Source of the DNA: Prevotella falsenii DSM 22864 = JCM 15124
GTDB taxonomy: Bacteria > Bacteroidota > Bacteroidia > Bacteroidales > Bacteroidaceae
NCBI RefSeq assembly: GCF_000613945.1
Contig: NZ_BAJY01000012.1
Coordinates: 1 to 64,000 of the forward strand
Length of the DNA: 64,000 nucleotides
Direction of reading: 5' to 3'
In this document: one piece after another, positions 502 through 56,885 of the stretch
How positions within the stretch are numbered: the stretch's first letter is position 1
Layout: every line of letters starts with the position of its first letter
Notes under the pieces: generated by a model
The model's input: only the letters and a program-made list of their open reading frames with translations
The model's database searches: none
What the model was told of the DNA's origin: nothing
Made by a program: the position numbers and the translations under genes

Positions 502-3500
502 TTATTTAATTATTACCTTTTTGCCGTTGTGGATGTACACACCCTTTGAAGGCTTGCTTACCTGTACACCATTCAAATTATAGTAAGGCGCATTGTCGTT
601 GTCCTTGCCAAACTCGGTAATACCGTCGATGCCCGCAGGAACATCCTCATCGTCGAACACAATGCTGAAACCCTTGGCAGGACTTGTCGGGCTGTTTTTC
701 AGACGGAAGTATGCCTTGAAGTAAGGGATTTTAACTCCATCCATGACCTTTACGAACTTACCATACTTCTTGCTGAAAGCATAGTATTGGAAGCCTGGCT
801 CATTCGTGATAGATACATCTTCTACTGCTTCAACCATGCGATTTTCAGCATTTTTGTTGTAACCAACAGCTTGAAGTTTATCTTCTTTATGCATTTGGTC
901 TTCGTCCATCTGGCAGTAAGAAGTTACATTGTCTGTTTTCTTACTACGGATAAGTGCACCAACGTATGCAGGTACATAATAGTCATCGAGGCTGTATGCA
1001 CGTACGATAGGGTTAGAAGCGGCATAAGCATAAGTGTAATCTACCGGAACGTATGGCTTAATGTCGTTGGCATCTTTTCCTGTCGGGTACTTTACATCGA
1101 ATGGGAAGCATACAGTGCCTCCGTTCTTATTGGTTATCTGTGGAATTTCGTGCGTGATGTTCAGCGTGTGATTGTCAATCTGCCATTTGTCCTTATAAGC
1201 GGCAACCTTGCTTTGCTTTACATAGATGTTCTGGTTGTCGGTAAATGGGTAATAATTTGGGGTCTTGAAACTGACAGACGCCATGTTTGGAACCGTATTG
1301 TCTACAAAATAGATGTTCTTGATCTTGTTGTTTTCTCCGCTCGTGCTTTTCTTGCTGAATGCATTGAGTCCTATTTCCTCCAGATCACCCAAGAACACTA
1401 CAGTCTCAGTTGCCTGATTGTCCTCAAAAGCATAATCGAGTACTGTAGCTACTTCATACGTATTGGTAGTTCCGTTGTACTTCTCGTTTACCTTTTCTGG
1501 AATAATGACCGAGTTTCGTGGCGTGTCGAAAGCGATGACACCCACTGTGTTTATTGATGTGGGGAAATACTCAATGCCACGGTCATAATCGGGATTTGGG
1601 GCTATAAACGAAGGATGAATATCCTTAAATCCTTTGGTCTTCATGTTGGCTATGGTTGTTGCATTGTTGGAATCCTCGAACCAACGCTTACGCACAAACA
1701 GGGTAATTTTTGTAACATCGGTGTTTAGGAAAGCCCTATCTTCCAATTTAGGAATGTCGCCTAAGAAGCTGATAGACGTCAGGTTCTTGGTGTTAGAGAA
1801 AGCGAAGTCGCCGATTTCTGTCACCGTTTTCGGAATCGTTACGTTGGTCAGCTCCACACAACTATAAAAAGCGGAGTCGATTGCAGTGATGAAAGATGGC
1901 ACCCGCGTATATCTGCTGTTGGCTTTTCCCGGAGGAAATGTCATCAGACGTGTCTTGTCCTTGCTTACGAGCATACCGTCAAGAGAGGTATATTTCTCAT
2001 TGTCCTTGTGCACATTGATGGATACCAGTTTGCTGCATGAGGTGAACGCCTGCGATGCTACGTTGGTAGTACCGGCAGGAATGTCTATTGACTCCAGTTT
2101 CTTACAACTGTGGAAGGATTCTACTCCCAGTGTTTTCAGAGACTCGGGCAGTTTGATGCCTGTAATTGCGGAGTTCTGGAAAGCATTGCGACCAATCTTC
2201 TCTAATTGGGAATTGTCGGGGAAAGTTACGTTAGCCAGCTTGCTGCATTCCGTGAATGCGCTCTCGCCAATAGTCGTCAGTGAGGCTGGCATCTTGACTT
2301 CAGTCAGTGCAGTACAGTTCTGGAAAGCTCTCGTGCCGATTGTTTCCAAGCCTGAATTTTCGATATTCAGGTTTACCAGACTCTTGCAATTCAGGAAAGC
2401 GTTATCCCCGATGCTCTTCAGTGACTTAGTATCAGCATTAACCGTTGTCAATGCAGAGCAGTCTTTAAAAGCTTCCTTTCCCAATGGGATTTTGCTGTTG
2501 GCACCGATATTGACTGTTTTGAGATTGGCGCACCCTACAAAAGCTCTGTCAGCCATTTTGTTAAGTTGTGAGTTGGCATCAAAGTTTAAGGTCTGCAGGT
2601 TTTTGCAGCCATAAGCCACTTCATAACCCATTTCTTTAACCGATGCCGGAATAGTGAGTTCCGTTACATTTTTCAAAGAGCGGAATGCAGATGAACCGAT
2701 ATAAGATACCTGTGATGTTGCATCAAAGATAATCTTGCTGTACTCTGACCCCTCAAAGGCACCGCTTTCAAGTCTCTTGACCGTATTGGGGATATGCTGA
2801 TCCACTGTCTTTCTCACATTGCAGAAAGCGTATAGCCCGATAGTTTCTACTACGGCAGGAATCGTATATTGTTCCCCCGGCTTCTGGTTGCATGGGAAAG
2901 CGTAGAGTGTCTTTTTGCCTTTGGTAAACATTACGCCATTTTCAGACTCGTATTTCGTATTTCCAGCGTTCACAGTGATTTCAGTCATCCTCTGGCAGGA
3001 AAGAAAAATATTATGTCCCAAATCTGTTGCTGACGCAGGAACATTGACCTTTAGCAATTCACTGCCATAGAAAGCACGGTCGCCGATTTTGGTAACACCC
3101 TCGGAAATCGTAACTTCCTTCAACTTTGCATACATGAAAGCTCTGTCTGCAAGCTCCACGCCTGAAGGGATTGTTATTTTTTCCAACTTTGAACGGAAAA
3201 AAGCTCTTGTTGCGATTTTCTTTACTGAGGTAGGAATATTGTAGCTGCCGTCTGTAAACTCTTTACCCTGTGGACTTGAAATCAACTCTTTCTTCTGTTT
3301 ATCGAAGAGTATGCCATTGTCTGCAGAATAGTTGGGATTCCCTGCAACCACTGTAAACGTAGCCAATTTGTCACATTCTGAATAAAATCCCTTATCTGCC
3401 GGAATGTTAGTCATCTGGGCAGGGAAATTGAGAGATGTAAGTTCCTTGCATCTATTGAATACAATTCCATTCATAGTGGTTGAACTCCCAAGATTTATGG

Positions 3501-4098
3501 AAGTCAGGTTGTTGCAATTTGTAAAGGCTCCGACCTCCAAAGTCTTTATCTCTGCTGGCACGTTGTACGAGGTAGCCGTCTTTCCTTGCGGATAAAGGAT
3601 AAGGGAGCCGTCCTTTTTACAGAGGACACCGTCAATGTCCTTCCACGTGACATTGGTGCTTGCTACCGTTATTTTATTTACCTTGGGGCTGTTTGTAATA
3701 AGATTTATGCCAAGCTTGGTTACCGACGCCGGAATATTAAAACTCACAAGGTCCGGACTTTCAGAAAATGCGCCGTTTTGAATCGACTCAATTCCTTCCG
3801 GCAGGGTCACGGATGTTACGCCTTCAATATTGAAAGCAATTGGTTCTACACCGATTACGTTGTATTCTGTGCCGTAATCGTCTGTGATTTTTTTCGGAAT
3901 CGTAATGGCACCGGTCTTGGTGGTTCCCGTCGACACGTAAACCTCACCAGGGGTAACTGTACCGGAAGCAGCAGTGGAAACCTTGGTAATCTTGTAAGAG
4001 ATGCCGCCTACATCGATGACATCACCTACATTGTACGCTCTCATTACTGATGTCATCGCCAGTAATAGGAGCAACAATAAAACTTTTGTTTGTTTCAT
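502..4098 (-). CDS. BspA-like leucine-rich-repeat surface protein, copy 1 (1198 aa)
   Basis: The protein starts with a clear signal peptide (MKQTKV, a run of leucines, cleavage near residue 21). Most of residues 80-780 are BspA/Treponema-type LRR (LRR_5) repeats with the recurring pattern AF..C..L..I.IP..V..IG..AF. The end, from about residue 1120, has NAPYYNLNGVQV and KGVYIHNGKKVIIK, which resembles Bacteroidota C-terminal sorting domains. Known relatives are cell-surface proteins that bind host matrix proteins or other bacteria, so an adhesin role is inferred. The gene heads a two-gene unit with the small acidic ORF and is intact, unlike its tandem copy. The start is fixed by the signal peptide and by the same start in copy 2. 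Confidence 0.92.
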   Translation of the reverse strand: MKQTKVLLLLLLLAMTSVMRAYNVGDVIDVGGISYKITKVSTAASGTVTPGEVYVSTGTTKTGAITIPKKITDDYGTEYNVIGVEPIAFNIEGVTSVTLPEGIESIQNGAFSESPDLVSFNIPASVTKLGINLITNSPKVNKITVASTNVTWKDIDGVLCKKDGSLILYPQGKTATSYNVPAEIKTLEVGAFTNCNNLTSINLGSSTTMNGIVFNRCKELTSLNFPAQMTNIPADKGFYSECDKLATFTVVAGNPNYSADNGILFDKQKKELISSPQGKEFTDGSYNIPTSVKKIATRAFFRSKLEKITIPSGVELADRAFMYAKLKEVTISEGVTKIGDRAFYGSELLKVNVPASATDLGHNIFLSCQRMTEITVNAGNTKYESENGVMFTKGKKTLYAFPCNQKPGEQYTIPAVVETIGLYAFCNVRKTVDQHIPNTVKRLESGAFEGSEYSKIIFDATSQVSYIGSSAFRSLKNVTELTIPASVKEMGYEVAYGCKNLQTLNFDANSQLNKMADRAFVGCANLKTVNIGANSKIPLGKEAFKDCSALTTVNADTKSLKSIGDNAFLNCKSLVNLNIENSGLETIGTRAFQNCTALTEVKMPASLTTIGESAFTECSKLANVTFPDNSQLEKIGRNAFQNSAITGIKLPESLKTLGVESFHSCKKLESIDIPAGTTNVASQAFTSCSKLVSINVHKDNEKYTSLDGMLVSKDKTRLMTFPPGKANSRYTRVPSFITAIDSAFYSCVELTNVTIPKTVTEIGDFAFSNTKNLTSISFLGDIPKLEDRAFLNTDVTKITLFVRKRWFEDSNNATTIANMKTKGFKDIHPSFIAPNPDYDRGIEYFPTSINTVGVIAFDTPRNSVIIPEKVNEKYNGTTNTYEVATVLDYAFEDNQATETVVFLGDLEEIGLNAFSKKSTSGENNKIKNIYFVDNTVPNMASVSFKTPNYYPFTDNQNIYVKQSKVAAYKDKWQIDNHTLNITHEIPQITNKNGGTVCFPFDVKYPTGKDANDIKPYVPVDYTYAYAASNPIVRAYSLDDYYVPAYVGALIRSKKTDNVTSYCQMDEDQMHKEDKLQAVGYNKNAENRMVEAVEDVSITNEPGFQYYAFSKKYGKFVKVMDGVKIPYFKAYFRLKNSPTSPAKGFSIVFDDEDVPAGIDGITEFGKDNDNAPYYNLNGVQVSKPSKGVYIHNGKKVIIK

Positions 4099-5110: not shown

Positions 5111-8100
5111 TTATTTGATGATTACTTTCTTTCCATTATGTATGTATACTCCCTTGGCAGGATTGTTCACTCTCATACCGTTCAGATTGTAGTAAGGCGC
5201 ACTGTCATTGGCGTCTTCTGCTACCTCGATGTTTTCAATGCCCGTTGTAGAAGGGTCGTCATCGTCGAAGCGGAACGAGAAACCTTTAGCCTGATTGTTG
5301 CTGTCCAGCTTCAAATAAGCACTGAAGTAAGGCATCGTGTTACCCGGAGCCTGCTTAATCTTCAGGAATTGTCCCTTGCTCTTGCTGAAAGCATATAAAT
5401 TGTTGTTGGCATCGCTCATTACCTGCGTTTCCTCAACAACACCCACCATCTTGTAGGTAGATGCAGAATACTTACCCGATGGGTCGTTTACGGCGTGATG
5501 GTCTTGTGCATCGGTCATCTCGCAATAAGAGGTGGCACCGGCAGCGTTAGGACTGTGCAGCAGCACTCCGAGGAAAGCAGGTACATAGCCGTTGTCGATA
5601 CGACGTGCCCTAGCATACGGATATGCAGGTGTCATGCGGCTGAAATCAACGGGCAGATAAGGGCGAACATCGCCGTTGTTGTTGTACTGCACATCGAACG
5701 GATAGCAACGAGTTGCACCGTAACTGTGGGTTGTCTGTGGAATTTCGTGCGTGATGTTCAGATTATGATTATCAATCAGCCATTTGGTCTTATAATTGTC
5801 TACCTTACTCTTCTTTACATAGATATTCTGACCGTCGGTAAATGGGTAATAATCCGGAACTTCGAAGCTGACAGATGCAAGGTTTGGAACCGTATTGTCT
5901 ACAAAATAGATGTTCTTAATCTTGTTTTCGGCAGTACTTGTCTTCTGTTTGCTGAATGCATTAAGACCGATTTCTTCCAAATCACCCAAGAACACTACTG
6001 TCTCAGTTTTCTGATTGTCCTCAAAAGCATAGTCAAGTACTGTAGCCACCTCATAGGTATTTGTCTTTCCTTTGTACTCCTCCTTTACCTCTTTTGGAAT
6101 AATAACCGAACTGCGAGGATTCTCAAAGGCGATGACACCTACTGTGTTCATTGATGTGGGGAAATACTCAATGCCACGGTCATAGTCGGGATTTGGGGCT
6201 ATAAACGAAGGATGAATATCCTTAAAGCCTTTTCCTTTCATCTTGTCAATGATTTCCTTATTGCTTGGATTCTCGAACCAAGCCTTACGCACAAACAGCG
6301 TAATTTCTTTAACATCAGTGTTGAGGAAAGTCCTGTCTGCCAATGTAGGAATGTCACCAAGGAAACTGATAGACTTCAGGTTCTTGGTGTTGGAGAAAGC
6401 AAAATCGCCAATTTGTGTTACCGTTTTCGGAATCGTTACATTGGTCAATTCTACACAACTGTAGAAAGCGGAGTCGATCGCAGTAATGAAAGACGGCAGA
6501 CGTGTATATCTACTGTTTGCCTTTCCCGGAGGGAATGTCATCAGACGGCTCTTATCCTTATTTACCAGCATGCCGTCAAGAGAGGCATAATTTGGATTGT
6601 CTTTGTGCACGTTGATGGAAGTCAGCTTGCTACATGAGGTAAACGCCTGCGATGCTACATTGGTAGTACCGGCAGGAATGTCTATTGACTCCAGTTTCTT
6701 ACAACTGTGGAAAGATTCTACTCCCAGTGTTTTCAGAGACTCGGGCAGTTTGATGCCTGTAATTGCGGAGTTCTGGAAAGCATTGCGCCCGATTTTCTCT
6801 AACTGTGAATTGTCGGGGAAAGTTACGTTAGCCAGCTTGCTACATTCCGTGAATGCGCTCTCGCCAATGGTCTTTAGTGAGGCTGGCATGGTAACGGCTG
6901 TCAATGAAGTACAGTTCTGGAAAGCTCTCGTGCCGATAGTTTCCAAGACCGAATTTTTGATGTCCAGAGTTGTCAGGTTCTTGCAATTCCGGAAGGCATT
7001 ATTCCCAATGCTCTTCAACGAGCCGGATTCGACCTTGACCGTTGTCAATGCTGTACAATCTTGGAATGTATTGTCACCCAATGCAATGGGGCTGTTAGCT
7101 TCGATATTGACCGTTGTGAGTTTTGGGCAGCTTGCAAAAGCTCTGGGAAGCATTCTTTCAAGTTTTGAGTTGGCAGCAAAGTTTACGGTCTGCAATTTTG
7201 GACAGCCATAAGCCACTTCAGTACCCATTTTTTCAACCGATGCCGGTATAGTGAGTTCCGTTACATTTCTCAAAAGGCGGAATGCAGACTCTTCAATAAG
7301 AGAAACTTGTGATGGATCATCGAAGATAATCTTGCTGTAGTGTGACTGCTCAAAGGCACCGCTCTTAAGTACCTTGACCGTTTGGGGGATATGCTGCTCC
7401 ACTGTCTTTTTTACATTGCAGAAAGCGTATAACCCGATAGTATCAACGGCAGCGGGAATCGTATAAACTTGTTCCGGTTCCTTGTTGCAAGGGAAAGAGT
7501 AGAGTGTCTTTTTACCTTTGGTAAACATTACACCATTTTCAGATTCGTATTCCGTGTTTCCATCTGCCACAGTAATTTCAGTCAAGCTCTGACAAGTAAG
7601 AAAAATGTTATGTCCCAGCTTGGTTGCTGATTTAGGAACCTTAACGGTTTGCAATTCACTACTATAGAAAGCACGCTCACCAATGGTTGTAACACCTTCA
7701 GAAATATCAACAGTCTTCAGCTTTGAATATGCAAAAGCTCTGTCTCCAATCTCCACGCCTGAAGGGATTTTCACGTTATCCAACTTTGAATAGAGAAAAG
7801 CTCTTGTCGAGATTTTCGTTACTGTGTTGGGAATGGTATAGCCGCTTGGAAAATCTTTTCCTTGTGGGCTCGAAATCAGCTCAGTCTTGTTTTTATCGAA
7901 GAGTATGCCATCTTCTGCGGAATATTTGGGATTCCCTGTTGCCACAGAAAACGAGGACAAATTATCACATTCATAATAGAAACCTTTCGTTGTCGGAATG
8001 TCAGTCATCTCGGCAGGGAAAGTGAGAGATGTAAGATTCTTACAGGTATTGAACACTATTCCCGTCATGGCGGTTGAATGTCCAAGGTTTATGGAGGTCA

Positions 8101-8691
8101 GGTTTACGCAATCGGTAAAGGCTCCGGCCTTCAAAGTCTTTATAGATGTTGGCACGGTGTACGAGCTTTCCGTCTTTCCTTGCGGATAAAGGATAAGAGA
8201 ATCATTCTTTGTACACAGGACGCCGCTAATATCTTTCCAATCAGCATTGCCGCTTGCCACCGTTATTGTCTTTACCTTGGGGCTTTTAACGATAAGTTTC
8301 TCGCCAATCTTGGTTACCGACGCCGGAATTTTAAAACTCTCAAGGTCCGGACTTTCGGCAAATGCGCTGTCGGCAATCGTCGTAATTCCTTCCTGTAACG
8401 TCACTGATTTTATCCCCGCTTTGTTGAAAGCATTTGCCCCTACGCCGGTTACATTATATTCTGTAGCGTAGTTGTCTTTGATGCTTTGGGGGATAGTAAT
8501 GTTACCGGTCTTGGTTGTTCCCGTCCATACCGATACCGTACCGGGGGTAACCGTACCTCCACACTGGCAGATGCCTTGGTAATCTTGTAAGCGATATTGT
8601 CTACTATTATGACATCGCCCACATTGTACGCCCTCATTACCGATGTCATCGTCAGTAATAGGAGCAACAATAAAACTTTTGTTTGTTTCAT
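5111..8691 (-). CDS. BspA-like LRR surface protein, copy 2, frameshifted near codon 45
   Basis: The start at 8691 encodes the same signal peptide as copy 1 (MKQTKVLL, then AYNVGDV). After ITKASASV the frame is lost at about 8555-8565. The rest of the protein (GGTVTPGTV onward) continues in another frame down to 5111. Adding one base restores 1193 aa, close to the 1198 aa of copy 1. The site is a short G run (GTGG-AGG on the minus strand) where copy 1 is one base longer. Downstream, the LRR_5 repeats and C-terminal domain are intact. It is either a real inactivation or a sequencing indel, and the many similar breaks in this window favour the second. No slippery heptamer for programmed frameshifting is visible. 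Confidence 0.85.
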
Positions 8692-8915
8692 CTTTACATT
8701 TGATTAAAATTAAAATATCGTTTTTATAACTCTTGAATACTCTTGGAATATTCTTAGAAAAATCTTCTAAACTTATCTTATCTTCTATTGGCAACACTTG
8801 GCCAACGGACACGATGATTTAGGAAAAGAAAATCAACGAAATTCCTTTTCCTATCGAGGTTGTACGCAATGCCTCGCGCGCGTACGTTTAAATATTTGTA
8901 TAAGAATTTAGCGAC

Positions 8916-13002: not shown

Positions 13003-13474
13003 TTATCAATAACGCAGGCTCGGCATAAGAATTATGCCGGCATATTGTTTATTAAGATACTTAAAGAAGGAACTGTTTGAGATTTAATATGCTTATAATC
13101 AAGAAGAAGCGAAGTATCTTCGTCCTCAAATTCTTGCGGTGAACTCGCATTATTCATGAGCGAAAAGAAAACAATAAAAACGTAAATATTTTTCACAAAT
13201 ATAACTCTTATCTAACTATCTATTCGTCAGCGCATTACAAAACCTATTGTTTCGCATTCCAAAAGCGGCTGTTTTGCACGGTAAAAGCGTAGGTTTTGCG
13301 TTGCAAAACCTACGCTTTCGCAATGTCAAAACACAGTTATCGCTTTTTAACGGAATTATCATTACAAAGTTAAGCAGAAATATTCTCACGGTTTCATTAG
13401 CGAACTTGCTTAAAAACATCTGTGAGATAACCTTGTTTAACCTGTTTTCTTATATCGAACTCACGTATTGATAA
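13003..13474 (+). repeat. MITE-like dispersed repeat with a 22-nt array, copy R1
   Basis: The ends are inverted repeats: TTATCAATA at the left and TATTGATAA at the right, followed inward by related CGGCATAAGAA and TTCTTATATCG. The centre is an array of 15 nt units AAAA-N7-TTTT/C starting at 13,239, 13,261, 13,283 and 13,305 (exactly 22 nt apart). The cores are CCTATTG, GCGGCTG, GCGTAGG and CCTACGC. Both arms align with the copy at 27,938-28,391. No convincing gene is encoded; short open frames here are by-products. Confidence 0.85.
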
Positions 13475-17639: not shown

Positions 17640-17885
17640 AGTGGGCGTTTTTTCGGCTTAACTTTGTAAAGATAATTCTCTTAAAAAACGATAACTGCGT
17701 TTTGGCGTTGCGAAAGCGGCTGTTTTACGATGTAAAACCTACGGTTTTACCGTGCAAAACAGCCGCTTTTGGAACGCAAAACAATAGGTTTTGTAATACA
17801 CTGACGGACAGATGGTTAAGCGATAGTTGCGCTTGCGAAAAATATTTACGGTTTTATTACATTCTTTTCGTTCATTTCTCCTGCT
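17640..17885 (-). repeat. Dispersed repeat with a 22-nt array, copy R2
   Basis: The orientation is opposite to R1. Units start at 17,712, 17,734, 17,756 and 17,778, all 22 nt apart. Read on the minus strand the cores are CCTATTG, GCGGCTG, CCGTAGG and CAGCCGC, with spacers GCGTTCC and GCACGGT as in the other copies. Parts of both arms remain, including CGTAAATATTTTTCGCAAG on the minus strand. The outer termini are not clear. Confidence 0.85.
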
Positions 17886-20274: not shown

Positions 20275-20435
20275 AACAGGAGAGTATCTTCGTCTTCAAA
20301 TTATTACACCGAACTCACGTTATTCATAAACGAAAAGAAGATAATAAAGACGTAAATATTTTTCACAAACTCAGCTATTATCTAACTGTCTATTCGCCAG
20401 CGCATTACAAAACCTATTGCTTCGCATTCCAAAAG
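20275..20435 (+). repeat. Truncated copy of the dispersed repeat, R3
   Basis: The left arm (GAGTATCTTCGTCTTCAAAT through ACGTAAATATTTTTCACAAA) is present, followed by unit 1 (AAAACCTATTGCTTC at 20,408) and its spacer GCATTCC. The second unit breaks off after AAAAGC. The rest of the array and the right arm are lost. Confidence 0.75.
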
Positions 20436-26133: not shown

Positions 26134-27822
26134 TTATGCGTTAATCGTTGCTGTTCTATACGTTTGCTTTCGTTGTTTCGCATTTATTCTTGCGTTGCGG
26201 TTCTTTATTGCGATGTCGTAAGCAGTTTCGTAAGCGTGTATAAACTCGCTCCATAGGGCTTTCTTCGATAGCTTTTGTGCATTTGCCCTGCATTTATCGA
26301 CTGCCTTTTTGTCCATTACGGCGTACTCTTTTATCGTTTCCTTGATGCTGTCTGCCACTTCCGAATAGTTGTCGTCGGTGCGATGTATCACCTTTACACC
26401 GTCCGTTATCTCGCAATATCTGCCCTTCCGGCGGTTTGCCCATAAGCCAAAGCCTGCAAGGTCGGTTGTTATGCAAGGCACTTTAAACGCTACCGCCTCC
26501 AACGGAGTATATCCCCAAGGCTCGTAATACGATGGATAGATGCAGAGGTCGTTGCCCAACACCACATCGTAATAAGGCATATCAACGATGCCATCGCTGC
26601 CATTCAGGTAGCAAGGCACAAATATCAGCTTCACTTTGTCGGTCGGCGCATTCTTAATACCTAAGTGGCGCATCATGTTCAGCACTTTATCGCTGTCCGT
26701 ATCGTACAGTTCGTGGGTAACAAACGGCAGCTCCAATGCGGTGTCGTACACGTTGTTGGTTGCCAAACGCTCCTGCAAATCGGCACGAGGGCGTGCCACC
26801 CACCCCGGCACTTCTATGAAAGCGAGAACGTTGCGTTGCAGTTTCTCGTCGTGGTTCAGTCGGTTCATTGCATCAATAAACACGTCGATGCCTTTGTTTC
26901 TGAACTCATAACGACCACCGGTAGATACAATGAGTGTATCGTCGCCGAGTGTTGTGCCCGTGAGAGCCTCTGCTATGCGCAGCAACTGCTTGCGTGCTGC
27001 TTTGCGTTTCTTGGTGAATGCGGCTGCTTTCGGTACGAAATCGTCTTCAAAACCATTTGGTAGCACCACGTCTACAGGCTTATCCAAAAGTTCCTTACAC
27101 TCTAAAGCGGTAATCTCGCTCACCGTTGTGAAGCAGTCTACATAATGTGCGGTTTGCTTTTCAATGGAGTGTTTGCTCTCCATATTCAGCTCTTCTGCCA
27201 TCTGATCGCCATTGTAAGCCTGAAGATAGCCGTACAACGGTTTGTTGTTACCTGCTATACTGCGCCCTATTCCCGTTGCGTGGGTAGTAAAAAGTGTGGC
27301 TATCTCGGGCACATTGTGTTGCAAAACCAATGCTGCGAAGCCTGTTTGCCATTCGTTGGCGTGGAATATGACGTTCTTACAGTTGCGCAGGTAGAAACGG
27401 TAATAGCTTTCTACAACCTTCGCAGCTGCAAGAGAAAACATCGCGGAGTCGTCGTAATCGCCATAAGCATGCAGGCTGTCCACGCCATAGTGTTCCCAAA
27501 GTTCACCGTAGAAGCCATTCTTCTTGGCATAAAAAGATTGGAAATCTACCAAAAACGCTATCGGACTGCCGGGAACATTCCACCGCCCGACCTTTAAAGT
27601 CAAGCCTTCGTGGTTTGCAACTGCCACCCATTCCTTAAAAAGCTCCTTATCTTCTGTGAAATAAGGGTTCTCTGTTCCATTACAACAATCGGGACCGACA
27701 AACACAACGTGGTCTCTCATCTTGTCCTGCAATGTCTTTGCACGTGTGGAAAGTACTGTGTAGATACCACCTACCTTGTTGCATACTTCCCAACTTGCTT
27801 CAAAAATAAAATCCAGAAACAT
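26134..27822 (-). CDS. Glycogen synthase, GT3-like (562 aa)
   Basis: The sequence opens with [20 protein letters not shown], the nucleotide-sugar-binding start of eukaryote-type (GT3) glycogen synthases, which Bacteroidota use instead of the GT5 enzyme. Other support is [31 protein letters not shown] and the C-terminal [20 protein letters not shown] with the conserved donor-site acidic residue. It extends alpha-1,4-glucan chains in the cytoplasm. It is the first gene of the operon with the phosphorylase and has a promoter at 27,848-27,876. The short basic tail ([11 protein letters not shown]) is unremarkable. Confidence 0.92.
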
Positions 27823-27847
27823 CTCTTTCGCTACTTATCAATCTTTG

Positions 27848-27876
27848 CAAAGGTAAGATAAAAAACGAATAACAAA
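27848..27876 (-). promoter_or_regulatory. Promoter of the glycogen operon
   Basis: On the minus strand TTTG (27,873-27,876), a 17 nt spacer and TACCTTTG (27,848-27,855) precede the glycogen synthase ATG by about 25 nt. This leaves a very short leader. Confidence 0.7.
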
Positions 27877-27937
27877 GAACAAAACCTATTATTTTAAGAC
27901 TTTTGACCTTTAAAATATGATATAAATCACGTTTTTA

Positions 27938-28391
27938 ACGTGAATTCGGTATAAGAACTACACCGCTATATTATTCATTAAGATACTTAAAGAAAGAATT
28001 GATTATGATTTAATATGCTTATAATCAAAAAAAGGCAAAGTATCTTGGGGCTTAAATTCTTACACTGAATTTACGTTATTCATGGGTGAAAAGAAGATAA
28101 TAAAGACGTAAATATTTTTCGCAAGCATAGCTATTGCGTAACTTATTCTGCATCAACATATTACAGAACCTATTGTTTCGCATTCCAAAAGCGGCTGTTT
28201 TGCACGGTAAAAGCGTAGGTTTTGCAGCGCAAAACAGCCGCTTTCGCAATGCCAAAACGCAGTTGTTGCTTTTTAACAGAATTATCTTTACAACGTTAAA
28301 CAGAAAAACGCTCACTGTTTCATCAGGGGATTTGCTTAAAAACATCTGTAAGACTACTTGCTTAAACCTGCTCTCTTATGCCGAACTCACA
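27938..28391 (+). repeat. MITE-like dispersed repeat with a 22-nt array, copy R4
   Basis: This is the best-preserved copy, about 454 bp. Its ends are inverted repeats (GTGAATTCGGTATAAGA at the left; the right end read backwards is GTGAGTTCGGCATAAGA). GTTTTTA lies immediately outside both ends (27,931-27,937 and 28,392-28,398), a possible target duplication. Array units start at 28,165, 28,187, 28,209 and 28,231. Their cores are CCTATTG, GCGGCTG, GCGTAGG and CAGCCGC. Confidence 0.85.
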
Positions 28392-28463
28392 TGTTTTTAG
28401 CAACAAAAAAAATAAATTTTGAAAAAGAAATGACCTATTTTCTGCAACAAAAAGAAAAAGAAC

Positions 28464-28471
28464 TATCTTTG
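28464..28471 (+). promoter_or_regulatory. Promoter -7 box close to a start codon
   Basis: TATCTTTG ends only 8 nt before the ATG at 28,480. With the usual 5-8 nt distance to the start of transcription, the mRNA would have almost no leader. Confidence 0.6.
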
Positions 28472-28479
28472 CAGAAGTT

Positions 28480-28941
28480 ATGAAAACAAAGCTCATTATA
28501 TTCATATTCGCAGCCTTCGTATTGACTTCGATGGCGTTGCCGTCTATGGCTGCAACCACCCGACCGACGTGCCAAGAAGGCGTTCCTGCCGATACAACAA
28601 CGTTTAAAGGGCACATAGAGAACCAAGAATATCAAATTTGGCTCGATATAAACTTCTATAAACAAGACATTATAGTGCCGGGACAAGAGGTTTTTGGCAA
28701 AGTTGCAGGCTATCTTGGCGCAAAACGCGACACTCGAAAGTGGATTATATCCGATGTAACGATAAAAGGAAACACTGCCACACTTACAATTATCAACGAC
28801 TATGGCAGCGAAGACCTTGTGGCAACGCTTACGCGCAATGCCGACGGCACCTACACTTTAAAACAAGTAGAGGGTAGCACCATACGCATCGTAGTAAACA
28901 ACAAGTGGGTGAAACTTCCGAAAACGATGCTGTTCAAGTAA
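28480..28941 (+). CDS. Small secreted protein of unknown function (153 aa)
   Basis: The product has a signal peptide (MKTKLIIFIFAAFVLTSMAL, cleavage near residue 24) and a mature part of about 129 residues rich in beta-strand pattern. Features such as WLDINFYKQDIIVPGQEVFG, then AKRDTRKWIISDVTIKGNTA and a TLTRNADGTYTLKQVEG hairpin suggest a compact beta-barrel or sandwich. I do not recognise the family. The gene is alone between the R4 repeat and the S41 protease gene, and each has its own promoter box. The start is fixed by the signal peptide, which makes the near-leaderless arrangement credible. Confidence 0.75.
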   Translation: MKTKLIIFIFAAFVLTSMALPSMAATTRPTCQEGVPADTTTFKGHIENQEYQIWLDINFYKQDIIVPGQEVFGKVAGYLGAKRDTRKWIISDVTIKGNTATLTIINDYGSEDLVATLTRNADGTYTLKQVEGSTIRIVVNNKWVKLPKTMLFK

Positions 28942-30869: not shown

Positions 30870-31090
30870 AAAACAGCTTCGACTTTGTAAATATTATTCC
30901 GTTAAAAAGTGGCAACTACACTTTGACGTTGCAAAAGCGTAGGTTTTGCGCACCGAAACCTACGCTTTTACTCTTCAAAACCTACGCTTTTGAAACGCAA
31001 AACAACAGGTTTTGTAATGCACTGACAACGAGCCGCTTAATCAATAGATACACACCTGAAAAATATTTACACTGTTATTATCTGCTTTCC
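30870..31090 (-). repeat. Dispersed repeat with a 22-nt array, copy R5
   Basis: Opposite orientation to R1. Units begin at 30,933, 30,955 or 30,956, 30,977 and 30,999. On the minus strand the cores read CCTGTTG, GCGTAGG, GCGTAGG and CCTACGC. One spacer (GAAGAGT) differs from the usual GCACGGT. Arms are shortened. The bases from 31,091 to 31,284 hold nothing I can identify. Confidence 0.85.
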
Positions 31091-39706: not shown

Positions 39707-39814
39707 ATTACCGTCATGCTCCCTTACCGGTTTCGTCCGCTTGCCGGCATCTGTGCAGCCATTATAGCCCGCTACGCCTTCGATGAACACCCCTCCCAAA
39801 CAACTATCAAAGTC

Positions 39815-39896
39815 GTAACGGAGTTACGGCATTCATCGTAACTCCGTTACGGCAATCGTCGCAACGGAGTTACTGCAATCGTCGTAACTCCGTTAC
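39815..39896. repeat. 23-nt array C (four units with alternating core)
   Basis: Units GTAACGGAGTTAC, GTAACTCCGTTAC, GCAACGGAGTTAC and GTAACTCCGTTAC begin at 39,815, 39,838, 39,861 and 39,884, exactly 23 nt apart. The arms GTAAC/GTTAC are complementary, and the 3-base core alternates GGA, TCC, GGA, TCC. The 10 nt spacers are also similar (GGCAATCGTC type). Confidence 0.93.
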
Positions 39897-40002
39897 GACA
39901 AATGCCGCTGCGTAGTATCGATAAACACAGCTGTTCTGATACTGCCAATACGATTTGGATATAAATATACGTGTTGGATATAAACCTACGCTTTTGGAAA
40001 CC

Positions 40003-51261: not shown

Positions 51262-51490
51262 AAAAAAGCAGACAAGAAAAACGTAAATATTTTTCACAAG
51301 CATAGCTATCGTGTAACTTATTATTTATCAACGCATTACAAAACCTATTGTTTTGCGTTCCAAAACCGTAGGTTTTGCACGGTAAAAGCGTAGGTTTTAC
51401 ATCGCAAAACCTACGCTTTTGCAACGTCAAAGCGCAGTTATCATTTTTTAAGGGAATATCCTTTACAAAATAAGGGCAGTTTAAACAAAC
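51262..51490 (+). repeat. Dispersed repeat with a 22-nt array, copy R6
   Basis: Units start at 51,340, 51,362, 51,384 and 51,406, exactly 22 nt apart. The cores are CCTATTG, CCGTAGG, GCGTAGG and CCTACGC, and the spacers are GCGTTCC, GCACGGT, ACATCGC and GCAACGTC. Shortened left and right arms are present. It lies between convergent genes (small membrane protein and sufS). Confidence 0.88.
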
Positions 51491-54952: not shown

Positions 54953-55267
54953 CTAAGAAGACTTCTCCCATCGCTTGTCCGAAAGTATAGTCTCTATCTT
55001 CCAACGTGCTCTTTCAAGAGCTTTTTCCTGCTCTGCAAACAGACTTGGAGGGTCGGGAACATAGAACGGACCACAGCGAAAAGCCTGCGGTGCAATCTTT
55101 ACATCGTCGGCTCTGCGGTAGGTCATAACAGTTTGCGAAGCGCAGAGCGTATCGCTTTTTACTTTCTGTTCTATGACGTATTTCTGCCACTCTTTGGGTT
55201 GCCAGTCTTGAGCATTCAAAACAGAAACAGCCAAAAACAGCCCTGCCGTCAGCATTTTTCTTTTCAT
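54953..55267 (-). CDS. Small exported protein inside the suf operon (104 aa)
   Basis: The gene lies between sufB and sufC on the same strand. It encodes a signal peptide (MKRKMLTAGLFLAVSVLNA) and a mature part of about 85 residues with AQDWQPKEWQKYVIEQKVKS and YRRADDVKIAPQAFRCGPFY. Two cysteines (CASQT, RCGPF) could form a disulfide. I do not recognise a family. An exported protein among cytosolic Fe-S assembly factors is unexpected; it may have its own promoter or have inserted later. The gap to sufB is about 170 nt and contains the 22-nt array D. Confidence 0.7.
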   Translation of the reverse strand: MKRKMLTAGLFLAVSVLNAQDWQPKEWQKYVIEQKVKSDTLCASQTVMTYRRADDVKIAPQAFRCGPFYVPDPPSLFAEQEKALERARWKIETILSDKRWEKSS

Positions 55268-55356
55268 CTGTTAGTTTCTTTTCAATGGATATTCTATATC
55301 TTTCGTATTGTTTCTTTTCTATTCTGAAAAAGCTGTTCGAGAGTCTCCTTTAAATC

Positions 55357-55436
55357 GCTCGGTATCTTTTCGAAGATTGCTCGGTATCTTTTTGCAGTTC
55401 GCTCGGTATCTTTTTAGAGTTCGCTCGGTATCTTTC
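55357..55436. repeat. 22-nt array D inside the suf operon (four direct units)
   Basis: GCTCGGTATCTTT occurs at 55,357, 55,379, 55,401 and 55,423, each exactly 22 nt apart, with variable 8-9 nt spacers (CGAAGATT, GCAGTTC, AGAGTTC). All units have the same orientation. The last ends just before the sufB stop codon at 55,440, so the array lies in the sufB to small-gene intergenic mRNA. Confidence 0.92.
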
Positions 55437-55439
55437 GTT

Positions 55440-56885
55440 TTATCCCACCGTTCCTTCCAATGTAACTGAGAGAAGTTTTTGCGCCTCAACAGCAAATTCC
55501 ATAGGAAGTTTGTTCAACACATCTTTCGCATATCCATTGACTATCAAGCCGATGGCGTCTTCCATCGGAATGCCTCGCTGGTTGCAATAGAACAGTTGGT
55601 CTTCGCTGATTTTCGATGTCGTAGCTTCGTGTTCGACGATTGCCGAATCGTTATGCACGTCCATATAAGGGAAAGTGTGCGCTCCGCAGGTTGAACCCAA
55701 GAGCAACGAGTCGCAAGAACTGTAGTTTCGCGCATTGTCGGCATTGGACGCAACACGCACCAAGCCGCGGTAAGAGTTCTGACTCTTGCCTGCCGAAATA
55801 CCTTTTGAAATGATGGTACTCTTTGTATTCTTGCCCAAATGTATCATCTTCGTGCCCGTATCGGCTTCTTGATAGTTGTTGGTAACGGCTACCGAATAGA
55901 ACTCCGCCTGCGAGTTGTCGCCACGCAAGATGCAAGATGGATATTTCCACGTAATAGCCGAACCCGTTTCTACCTGTGTCCACGAGAGTTTAGAGTTCTT
56001 GCCACGCAAGTCGCCACGCTTTGTTACGAGGTTCAGCACACCGCCTTTGCCGTTTTCATCGCCCGGATACCAGTTCTGAACCGTTGAATATTTCACTTCC
56101 GCATTTGCCAACACTACGATTTCGACAATGGCTGCATGAAGTTGGTTTTCGTCGCGCATCGGAGCCGTGCAACCTTCAAGATAACTCACATACGAATTGT
56201 CGTCGGCTATAATCAATGTGCGTTCAAACTGCCCCGTATTCATTGCATTGATGCGGAAATACGAACTTAATTCCATCGGACAGCGAACGCCCTTCGGAAT
56301 GTACACGAACGAACCATCGCTGAATACTGCCGAGTTGAGTGCAGCCGTAAAATTATCCTTGTAGGGGACAACCGTTCCTATATATTGACGCACCAATTCG
56401 GGGTGTTCCTTCACAGCTTCACCAATCGAACAAAAGATAATTCCTTTTTCAGCCAACTGCTTCTTAAACGTAGTTTTCACCGACACCGAGTCCATAATGG
56501 CATCTACTGCCACACCGCCCAACGCCAACCGTTCCTCAAGTGGAATACCAAGTTTGTCGAAAGTCTTCTCCAATTCCGGGTCAATCTCCTTGTTCTTAGG
56601 CTTCTTCGCCAATGGGTCGGCATAATAGGAAATTGCCTGATAGTCTATTTCCGGCAAGTTCAGATGCAGCCACTTTGGCATCTCCATGGTCTGCCAATGG
56701 CGAAACGCCTTTAAACGAAAATCGAGGAGCCATTCAGGTTCCCCTTTCTTTTCCGAAATAAGCCTGACGACATCTTCGTTTAAGCCCTTCGGAATTATAT
56801 CCGTATGTACATCGGTGGTGAACCCGAACTCGTATTTCTGTTCGGCAACCTTCCTTACATACTCATTGCTATTGTTTTCTGACAT
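55440..56885 (-). CDS. sufB: Fe-S cluster assembly protein SufB (481 aa)
   Basis: SufB is the scaffold subunit that carries the nascent cluster. Recognisable parts are [80 protein letters not shown], and the conserved [17 protein letters not shown] cysteine region. The length matches the family. It is the first gene of the operon (B, small exported ORF, C, D, S). I could not find a strict TAnnTTTG promoter in front of it. Confidence 0.97.

Follow-up and report, generated by a model that had tools for sequence, protein, structure and literature searches.

Does the complementarity between the units of a highly repeated DNA array reflect selection for a hairpin, or can it be produced by the way in which such arrays mutate? 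The question is raised by an array at 28165-28245 in the 64,000-nucleotide stretch of the Prevotella falsenii DSM 22864 genome that we analysed (contig NZ_BAJY01000012.1, positions 1 to 64,000; called the window below). The array has four units laid out in 22 bp, each consisting of AAAA, a 7-bp word, TTTT and a linker, with A/T tracts every 11 bp. In this copy, read on the forward strand, unit 1 (28165..28179) is AGAA-CCTATTG-TTTC, with a word that is near-invariant in the host genome (101/105 copies), unit 2 (28187..28201) is AAAA-GCGGCTG-TTTT, and unit 3 (28209..28223) is AAAA-GCGTAGG-TTTT. Linker 3 (28224..28230, forward strand; GCAGCGC), which lies between inverted units and occurs in both orientations across copies, is followed by unit 4 (28231..28245, forward strand), AAAA-CAGCCGC-TTTC, whose inverted word is the complement of that of unit 2, its partner in this copy. 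Units 1 to 3 point one way and unit 4 the opposite way in nearly all copies of P. falsenii (the host) and of its sister species (genome G083), which makes the arrays imperfect inverted repeats.

The original prediction held that unit 4 complements unit 2 or unit 3 in every copy. Its coordinates, 28187-28245, are correct and units 2, 3 and 4 lie where it placed them, but the stem given as 15 bp proves to be 14 bp and a mismatch, units 2 and 4 being complementary at 14 of 15 positions with the outermost A opposite a C. All five complete window copies have a partner for unit 4. In the present copy this is unit 2, and the other four copies, with the words of units 2 to 4 in order, are those at 13239..13325 on the forward strand (GCGGCTG, GCGTAGG, CCTACGC; unit 4 pairs with unit 3), at 17706..17792 on the minus strand (GCGGCTG, CCGTAGG, CAGCCGC; pairing with unit 2), at 30927..31013 on the minus strand (GCGTAGG, GCGTAGG, CCTACGC; pairing with both) and at 51340..51426 on the forward strand (CCGTAGG, GCGTAGG, CCTACGC; exact pairing with unit 3). 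A further forward-strand copy, at about 20350..20435, breaks off after unit 1 and so lacks unit 4, and at 39985 a single unit remains. From the unit-4 word counts of the host genome, given below, the chance that five of five copies would pair is ~3%, and the window alone is therefore weak evidence.

The host assembly comprises 2.80 Mb in 92 contigs, and our sample of it, the window plus 60 stretches of 20 kb (1.264 Mb), covers under half of the genome. A scan with a template of fixed letters found 125 arrays, of which 105 scored at least 50 and the 20 below 50 were left out; joining neighbouring stretches gave 108. Among the 105, linker 2 is GCACGGT in 90, unit 2 is CCGTAGG in 60, GCGGCTG in 27 and GCGTAGG in 13, unit 3 is GCGTAGG in 51, CCGTAGG in 27 and GCGGCTG in 12, and unit 4 is CCTACGG in 48, CCTACGC in 32 and CAGCCGC in 16. 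Unit 4 is the exact complement of unit 2 or unit 3 in 84/105 arrays where 61 are expected, and in the joined set in 86/108 against 63.2 expected, the maximum reached in 3000 permutations of unit 4 alone being 81. Pairing in the host thus exceeds chance, but the claim for every copy does not extend beyond the window, since 22 of the 108 arrays fail exact pairing. The excess is also seen among distinct word combinations (54/75 exact, 38.0 expected) and outside the youngest tail type (51/71, 36.7 expected); within that tail type the difference is not significant (35/37 against 32.5, p=0.07). With one mismatch allowed, a partner is present in 101/108 arrays against 90.0 expected. Units 2 and 3 carry the same word in 10/108 host arrays and in 1/96 arrays of G083, where 25.5 are expected in each species. 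These two units, which run in the same direction, avoid equal words, possibly because slippage eliminates identical neighbours.

The sister species behaves differently with respect to pairing. G083, whose identity to the host is mostly 87 to 93% as judged from syntenic flanks, has 190 exact matches to linker 2 (194 in the host), and a 1.2-Mb sample of it yielded 96 arrays scoring at least 50. The 35 arrays listed use chiefly the words GCGGCTG, GCGGCTC and GCGTAGG and lack CCGTAGG, which in the host is the most frequent word of unit 2. In each of the two species the copies draw on a small common vocabulary, and the two vocabularies differ. Exact pairing is found in 40/96 arrays where 47.1 are expected, so that the excess over chance seen in the host is not repeated. 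The observation that the original prediction had named as telling against itself, many copies without a partner, is what we find here for exact pairing, in 56 of the 96 arrays. With one mismatch, 85/96 arrays are partnered against 87.7 expected; because units 2 and 3 avoid a common word, a near partner is mostly there by default. Within the window the pairing holds, but it is no rule of the repeat class.

Sites shared by the two species allow words to be compared copy by copy. Sixteen of the 96 G083 arrays have an array at the syntenic host site, 5 do not and 75 could not be placed in the host sample; two of the 16 are oppositely oriented. As these are two species rather than strains, the differences are stated without a direction of change. 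The words differ at 15 of the 16 sites. At G083:178871 a single word, that of unit 2, differs, and unit 4 has an exact partner in G083 but none in the host; at G083 102424 units 2 and 3 differ and the host unit 4 is again partnerless, unlike that of G083. At G083:263888 linker 3 is exactly inverted, and host units 3 and 4 are exact complements. Outside the array, the element shows same-site identity of 73% on the left and 79% on the right, compared with 66% and 74% between sites, and its faster divergence than the flanks fits exchange among copies. Recent transposition of the module between host and G083 was considered and set aside, since one array-free host site keeps the right end of the element and looks like a deletion. 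A replichore orientation bias was also rejected, the G083 arrays lying on both strands.

Among 100 Prevotella genomes the linker-2 sequence is abundant in the host and G083 only. A three-unit pattern of the frame matches in 57/99 genomes of the genus, 19 of them with ten or more matches, and the words vary from genome to genome among the matches listed; the search presupposed the frame, whose constancy is therefore partly built in. Of 294 genomes of the order outside the genus, 4 match a four-unit pattern, each with one or two occurrences. For four Prevotella genomes we used, among the four-unit matches listed and with one frame per array, 50 of 87 (G057), 46 of 59 (G077), 27 of 36 (G012) and 21 of 145 (G006). 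Exact complements in the 50 G057 arrays number 15 between units 1 and 2 (6.7 expected) and 18 between units 3 and 4 (7.6 expected), and in the 46 G077 arrays 9 (2.3 expected) and 8 (1.8 expected), although strand was not normalised in these four genomes, so that a difference between the slots of the two strands may account for part of the excess. Units 2 and 3, which together with direct words serve as internal controls for such a strand effect, are exact complements only once in each genome (5.5 expected in G057, 2.1 in G077), and no significant enrichment of identical direct words was found in the listed arrays of either. The complements of G077 span 11 different words. The excess in G057 is one of exact complements, which is what homogenisation of the arms would predict; G077 also has more one-mismatch pairs than expected. 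The 27 listed G012 arrays show no excess of adjacent complements (6 against 5.9 expected), and the 21 listed G006 arrays have one adjacent complement where 2.7 are expected and 10 direct identities where 2.5 are expected. Words and complements are thus placed non-independently in the host, G057 and G077. Both arrays that the scan found in P. nigrescens (L230 at about 26801 and L228 at about 6079) lie between annotated genes, and in both unit 4 finds no partner in unit 2 or unit 3; in the L230 array it is units 2 and 3 that complement each other exactly. Four other genomes (G008, G003, G025 and G045) matched the frame 0 to 3 times but a backward control pattern 16 to 31 times, perhaps arrays in which core and linker lengths are exchanged.

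What process could place words and complements in this way without a fixed rule? The original prediction offered the copying of words by inversion as an alternative to selection, and this part of it fits the data better, since linker 3 occurs in both orientations, with the qualification that the orientation classes are our own and were defined from the data. Linker 3 is the sole linker between inverted units and the sole one often seen both ways round. By these classes it is forward in 55, reversed in 29, ambiguous in 6 and other in 18 of the 108 host arrays (24/108 unorientable), and forward in 50, reversed in 19, ambiguous in 8 and other in 19 of the 96 G083 arrays (27/96 unorientable), which makes it reversed in 29/84 and 19/69 oriented copies, respectively. 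Linker 1 is reversed in 1/103 host and 2/91 G083 copies, linker 2 in 0/103 and 0/95, and linker 4 in 2/107 and 0/95. The reversed-type strings GCGTTGC and GCATTGC also occur as linker 1, so that copying from linker 1 could mimic inversion. In the host a reversed linker 3 accompanies exact pairing of units 3 and 4 (17/33 against 12/51, p=0.011), but the link loses significance when only distinct combinations are counted (p=0.26) or the young tail is left out (p=0.054; 0.12 for distinct combinations), and it is not significant in G083 (p=0.38). A reversed linker 2 takes the position of linker 3 in 4/108 host and 1/96 G083 arrays, giving an inverted centre, and these arrays are no better paired than the others. 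Inversion of the whole hairpin, with unit 3, linker 3 and unit 4 moving together, was dropped because the cases are too few.

Template switching between short inverted repeats has been described, in the portions of PMC8604942 available to us, as homogenising the arms and inverting the spacers. Such quasipalindrome mutation predicts what is seen here in units 3 and 4 and linker 3; the template-switch papers (PMC8604942 and PMC8794818), in the same portions, treat yeast coding genes and RNA genes, whereas the present case is a dispersed bacterial repeat. We favour, with almost even weight for and against, the reading that polymerase template switching at imperfect inverted repeats, combined with word exchange between copies, makes the pattern. 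An imperfect inverted-repeat array would be a hotspot for switching by DNA polymerase, in which one arm templates the other and imperfect arms become exact complements; the same event could flip the spacer between the arms. Words would also be exchanged between copies, presumably by gene conversion. Together the two processes would give complementarity above chance but no rule, and to a degree that may differ between sister species. Hairpin formation itself may happen and may matter at some sites. Several results weigh against template switching. G083 and G012 show no excess of exact pairing and G006 a deficit, an exact linker flip is seen at only 1 of the 16 orthologous sites, and gene conversion among the ~200 copies could by itself carry words along with their spacers. 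The stability of the folds relative to word-shuffled arrays, described below, is also expected from hairpin selection.

Selection for a cruciform or RNA hairpin was the other explanation that the original prediction put forward, changes in unit 4 being compensatory; the array might then act, for example, as a bidirectional terminator or a transcript-stabilising stem between genes. Arrays are indeed enriched between convergent genes, at 41/121 in the host against 49/260 array-free gaps (p=0.0018) and 39/103 against 26/193 in G083 (p=3e-6), in a test that used our own ORF caller, which drops array-spanning ORFs <1200 bp, array-free gaps not being so treated. Convergent gaps may simply tolerate insertions, and the copy at 28165 sits between divergent genes. 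No array lies inside an ORF of at least 400 codons, the caller discarding shorter ORFs over arrays; without that filter 38/125 host and 45/103 G083 arrays lie within some ORF of at least 80 codons. Folds are stabler than those of word-shuffled arrays (z of -4.2 in the host, -3.7 in G083, -2.6 in G077 and -1.4 in G057), although shuffling also removes the tendency of units 2 and 3 to differ in word. The exact complements across 11 words in G077 and the orientation of units 1 to 3 against unit 4, kept in nearly all copies, would also suit a selected hairpin. Yet the missing excess of exact pairing in G083 and G012 leaves such selection unsupported, and G006, with fewer complements and more direct copies, weakens it further, in particular as a sole cause. 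Two of the 16 orthologous host copies are without any near partner. The unit 2:4 diagonal covaries without a G-U excess, and its covariation is not the strongest. RNAalifold found no common consensus fold of the arrays, which we think is due to the varying partner of unit 4, and an Rfam scan of window positions 27500-28900 gave a best score of 26.8 bits against a gathering threshold of 90. On balance we consider a hairpin under selection unlikely as the origin of the pattern.

It is also conceivable that the frame is what is selected, either as curved DNA made by phased A-tracts or as a predicted row of protein sites in which 22-bp units correspond to two helical turns, and that the words are passive. 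Two-unit matches are many only at spacings that pick up the same 22-bp arrays by way of their four-letter tracts (183 to 535 per species and spacing), other tested spacings giving at most 18 and a Markov control at most 4. In a wedge model the array is predicted to bend by 86 degrees over 87 bp, compared with 29 degrees when the letters are shuffled, 58 when the linkers are made 3 shorter and 24 when they are made 5 longer, but the model is crude. Other Prevotella have the same frame with other words, inverted or direct, and many of their units are quasi-palindromes, e.g., AAACG NNN CGTTT. This constancy is partly built into the genus search, and persistence of the frame may come just from common descent of the copies. 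A selected frame would leave the exact-complement excess and the two orientations of linker 3 unexplained, and as an account of the pattern it seems to us decidedly improbable. A simpler proposal is that vocabulary does most of the work: units 2 and 3 would draw on two or three forward words and avoid carrying the same one, unit 4 would draw on the complements, and a partner would then exist by default. This is sufficient in G083, where partners at up to one mismatch are as frequent as expected (85/96 against 87.7), it agrees with the rarity of a shared word in units 2 and 3 noted above for both species, and both word classes are present in 3 of the 5 complete window copies. It is insufficient in the host, in which the excess survives permutation of unit 4 (86 against 63.2, and 54/75 against 38.0 for distinct combinations), and G057 and G077 also lie above the expectation from slot frequencies. 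We think it very unlikely that vocabulary alone is the answer. Returning to template switching and word exchange, it is possible, though we would sooner doubt it than rely on it, that they rewrite intergenic arrays genus-wide, within a fixed A-tract frame and with a 7-bp vocabulary of each species' own, and that hairpins arise there without structural selection.

The array is embedded in larger elements. It forms part of an inner repeat module of 186 bp (28107..28292, forward strand), similar to the repeat PINSR, that starts with CGTAAATATTTTTC and ends with GAATTATCTTTACA. The bounds were taken from column conservation in 103 host copies, and both ends are aligned in 98/108 host and 91/96 G083 copies. 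These ends are imperfect inverted repeats, in the consensus TGTAAATATTTTTC and GAATTATCTTTACA. The module in turn makes up the interior of a MITE of 455 bp (27938..28392, forward strand) without a transposase, the ends of which, ACGTGAATTCGGTATAAGA and TCTTATGCCGAACTCACAT, match as inverted repeats at 16 of 19 positions. On either side stands the 7-bp direct repeat GTTTTTA (27931..27937 and 28393..28399, no strand assigned), a likely target-site duplication; judged by eye, such a duplication is present at some other copies but not at all. An outer pair of ISPg3-type ends within 420 bp and with at most 3 mismatches was found for 16/108 host arrays, this copy included, and neither end for 75/108. 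In G083 the same MITE ends bound elements of 1025 to 1027 bp that carry a reading frame of 299 aa, or of 320 aa if started at an upstream GTG, of the DDE_Tnp_1_3 type. Elements of ~1025 bp with MITE ends and the DDE transposase lie at G083 C1:366882, 402000, 603291 and 737374, and the host sample contains a copy shortened to 857 bp, in which the frame has 134 aa (joined C88 36980-37836). The ~1025-bp elements are likely to be the autonomous partner of the MITE.

The inner module is very probably PINSR, an identification made from length, copy number and host group. The parts of PMC4755523 available to us describe PINSR as an intergenic repeat of 188 bp that was judged to be non-coding. Two P. 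intermedia strains have 177 and 184 copies of it, at sites largely common to both, and it is also found in P. nigrescens; for P. intermedia OMA14 and 17, about three quarters of the repeat regions are reported to coincide. The module here has 186 bp against those 188 and 194 exact linker-2 matches against those 177 and 184 copies; it matches in the P. nigrescens FDAARGOS_1486 and F0103 records, and FDAARGOS_1486 also has an element with similar ends. The same parts of PMC4755523 describe PINSR as lacking terminal repeats, as distinct from MITEs and as restricted to one clade, leave its source and function open as of 2015, and contain no mention of internal units, words, pairing or inversion. 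In contrast, the repeat as seen here is built of four 22-bp units, its ends are imperfectly inverted, a minority of its copies sit within a MITE, and its frame recurs with other words in other Prevotella. A literature search for the word PINSR returned PMC4755523 only, some other literature searches brought up no title on the repeat, and a search of genome contigs with the repeat gave no match, near genomes possibly being left out of that collection.

Another relative to be considered was the BrickBuilt MITE of Porphyromonas gingivalis, which, according to the available text of PMC4596501, is likewise intergenic and MITE-like, with a 23-nt minisatellite between leader and tail, predicted long stem-loops and IS-type terminal repeats. 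Identity with BrickBuilt (23-nt direct repeat, TIR GAGACCTTTGCA) was rejected because the elements here have a 22-bp frame and other words and ends. BrickBuilt has 19 copies of 1 to 22.8 units, compared with ~200 copies of mostly four 22-bp units, and that text describes neither a word vocabulary nor inversion (PMC4596501). Its TIRs are closest to those of ISPg1/ISPg9, whereas the ends here are closest to MITE239/ISPg3, the MITE239 end being ACGTGAGTTCGATATAA (Table 2 of PMC4596501) and the end here ACGTGAATTCGGTATAA. ISPi1, in the available portion of PMC4755523, has the ends of ISPg3 and a 7-bp target duplication, and a 7-bp duplication is also present at this MITE copy. Newly described here are the unit anatomy, the species-specific vocabularies, the frame in other Prevotella and the inversion signature; we claim no priority for template switching.

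Other repeats are present in the window. At 39812-39903 there is a second, apparently unrelated 23-bp array in which GTAACGGAGTTAC takes turns with GTAACTCCGTTAC as the core, so that here too a core is inverted while its arms stay fixed. A direct array of 22 bp (TCGCTCGGTATCTTTT) lies at 55355-55457, and no inverted repeats were found in 55100-55700. On the minus strand, 502-4098 and 5111-8812 hold neighbouring ORFs of 1198 and 1233 aa that appear to be tandem paralogues, both with leucine-rich repeats of the BspA type (LRR_5).

Covariation between the arms of a stem is usually taken as proof of a functional structure. With ~200 copies per genome, some of them at sites shared with a sister species, these arrays are a natural test bed for distinguishing hairpin selection from hairpin-making mutation, as they offer word-by-word differences, a complementarity that depends on the species, direct copying in one of the species and a spacer that occurs both ways round. 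Our analysis also supplies an anatomy for PINSR and suggests that PINSR may be a local form of an element that is more widespread in Prevotella.
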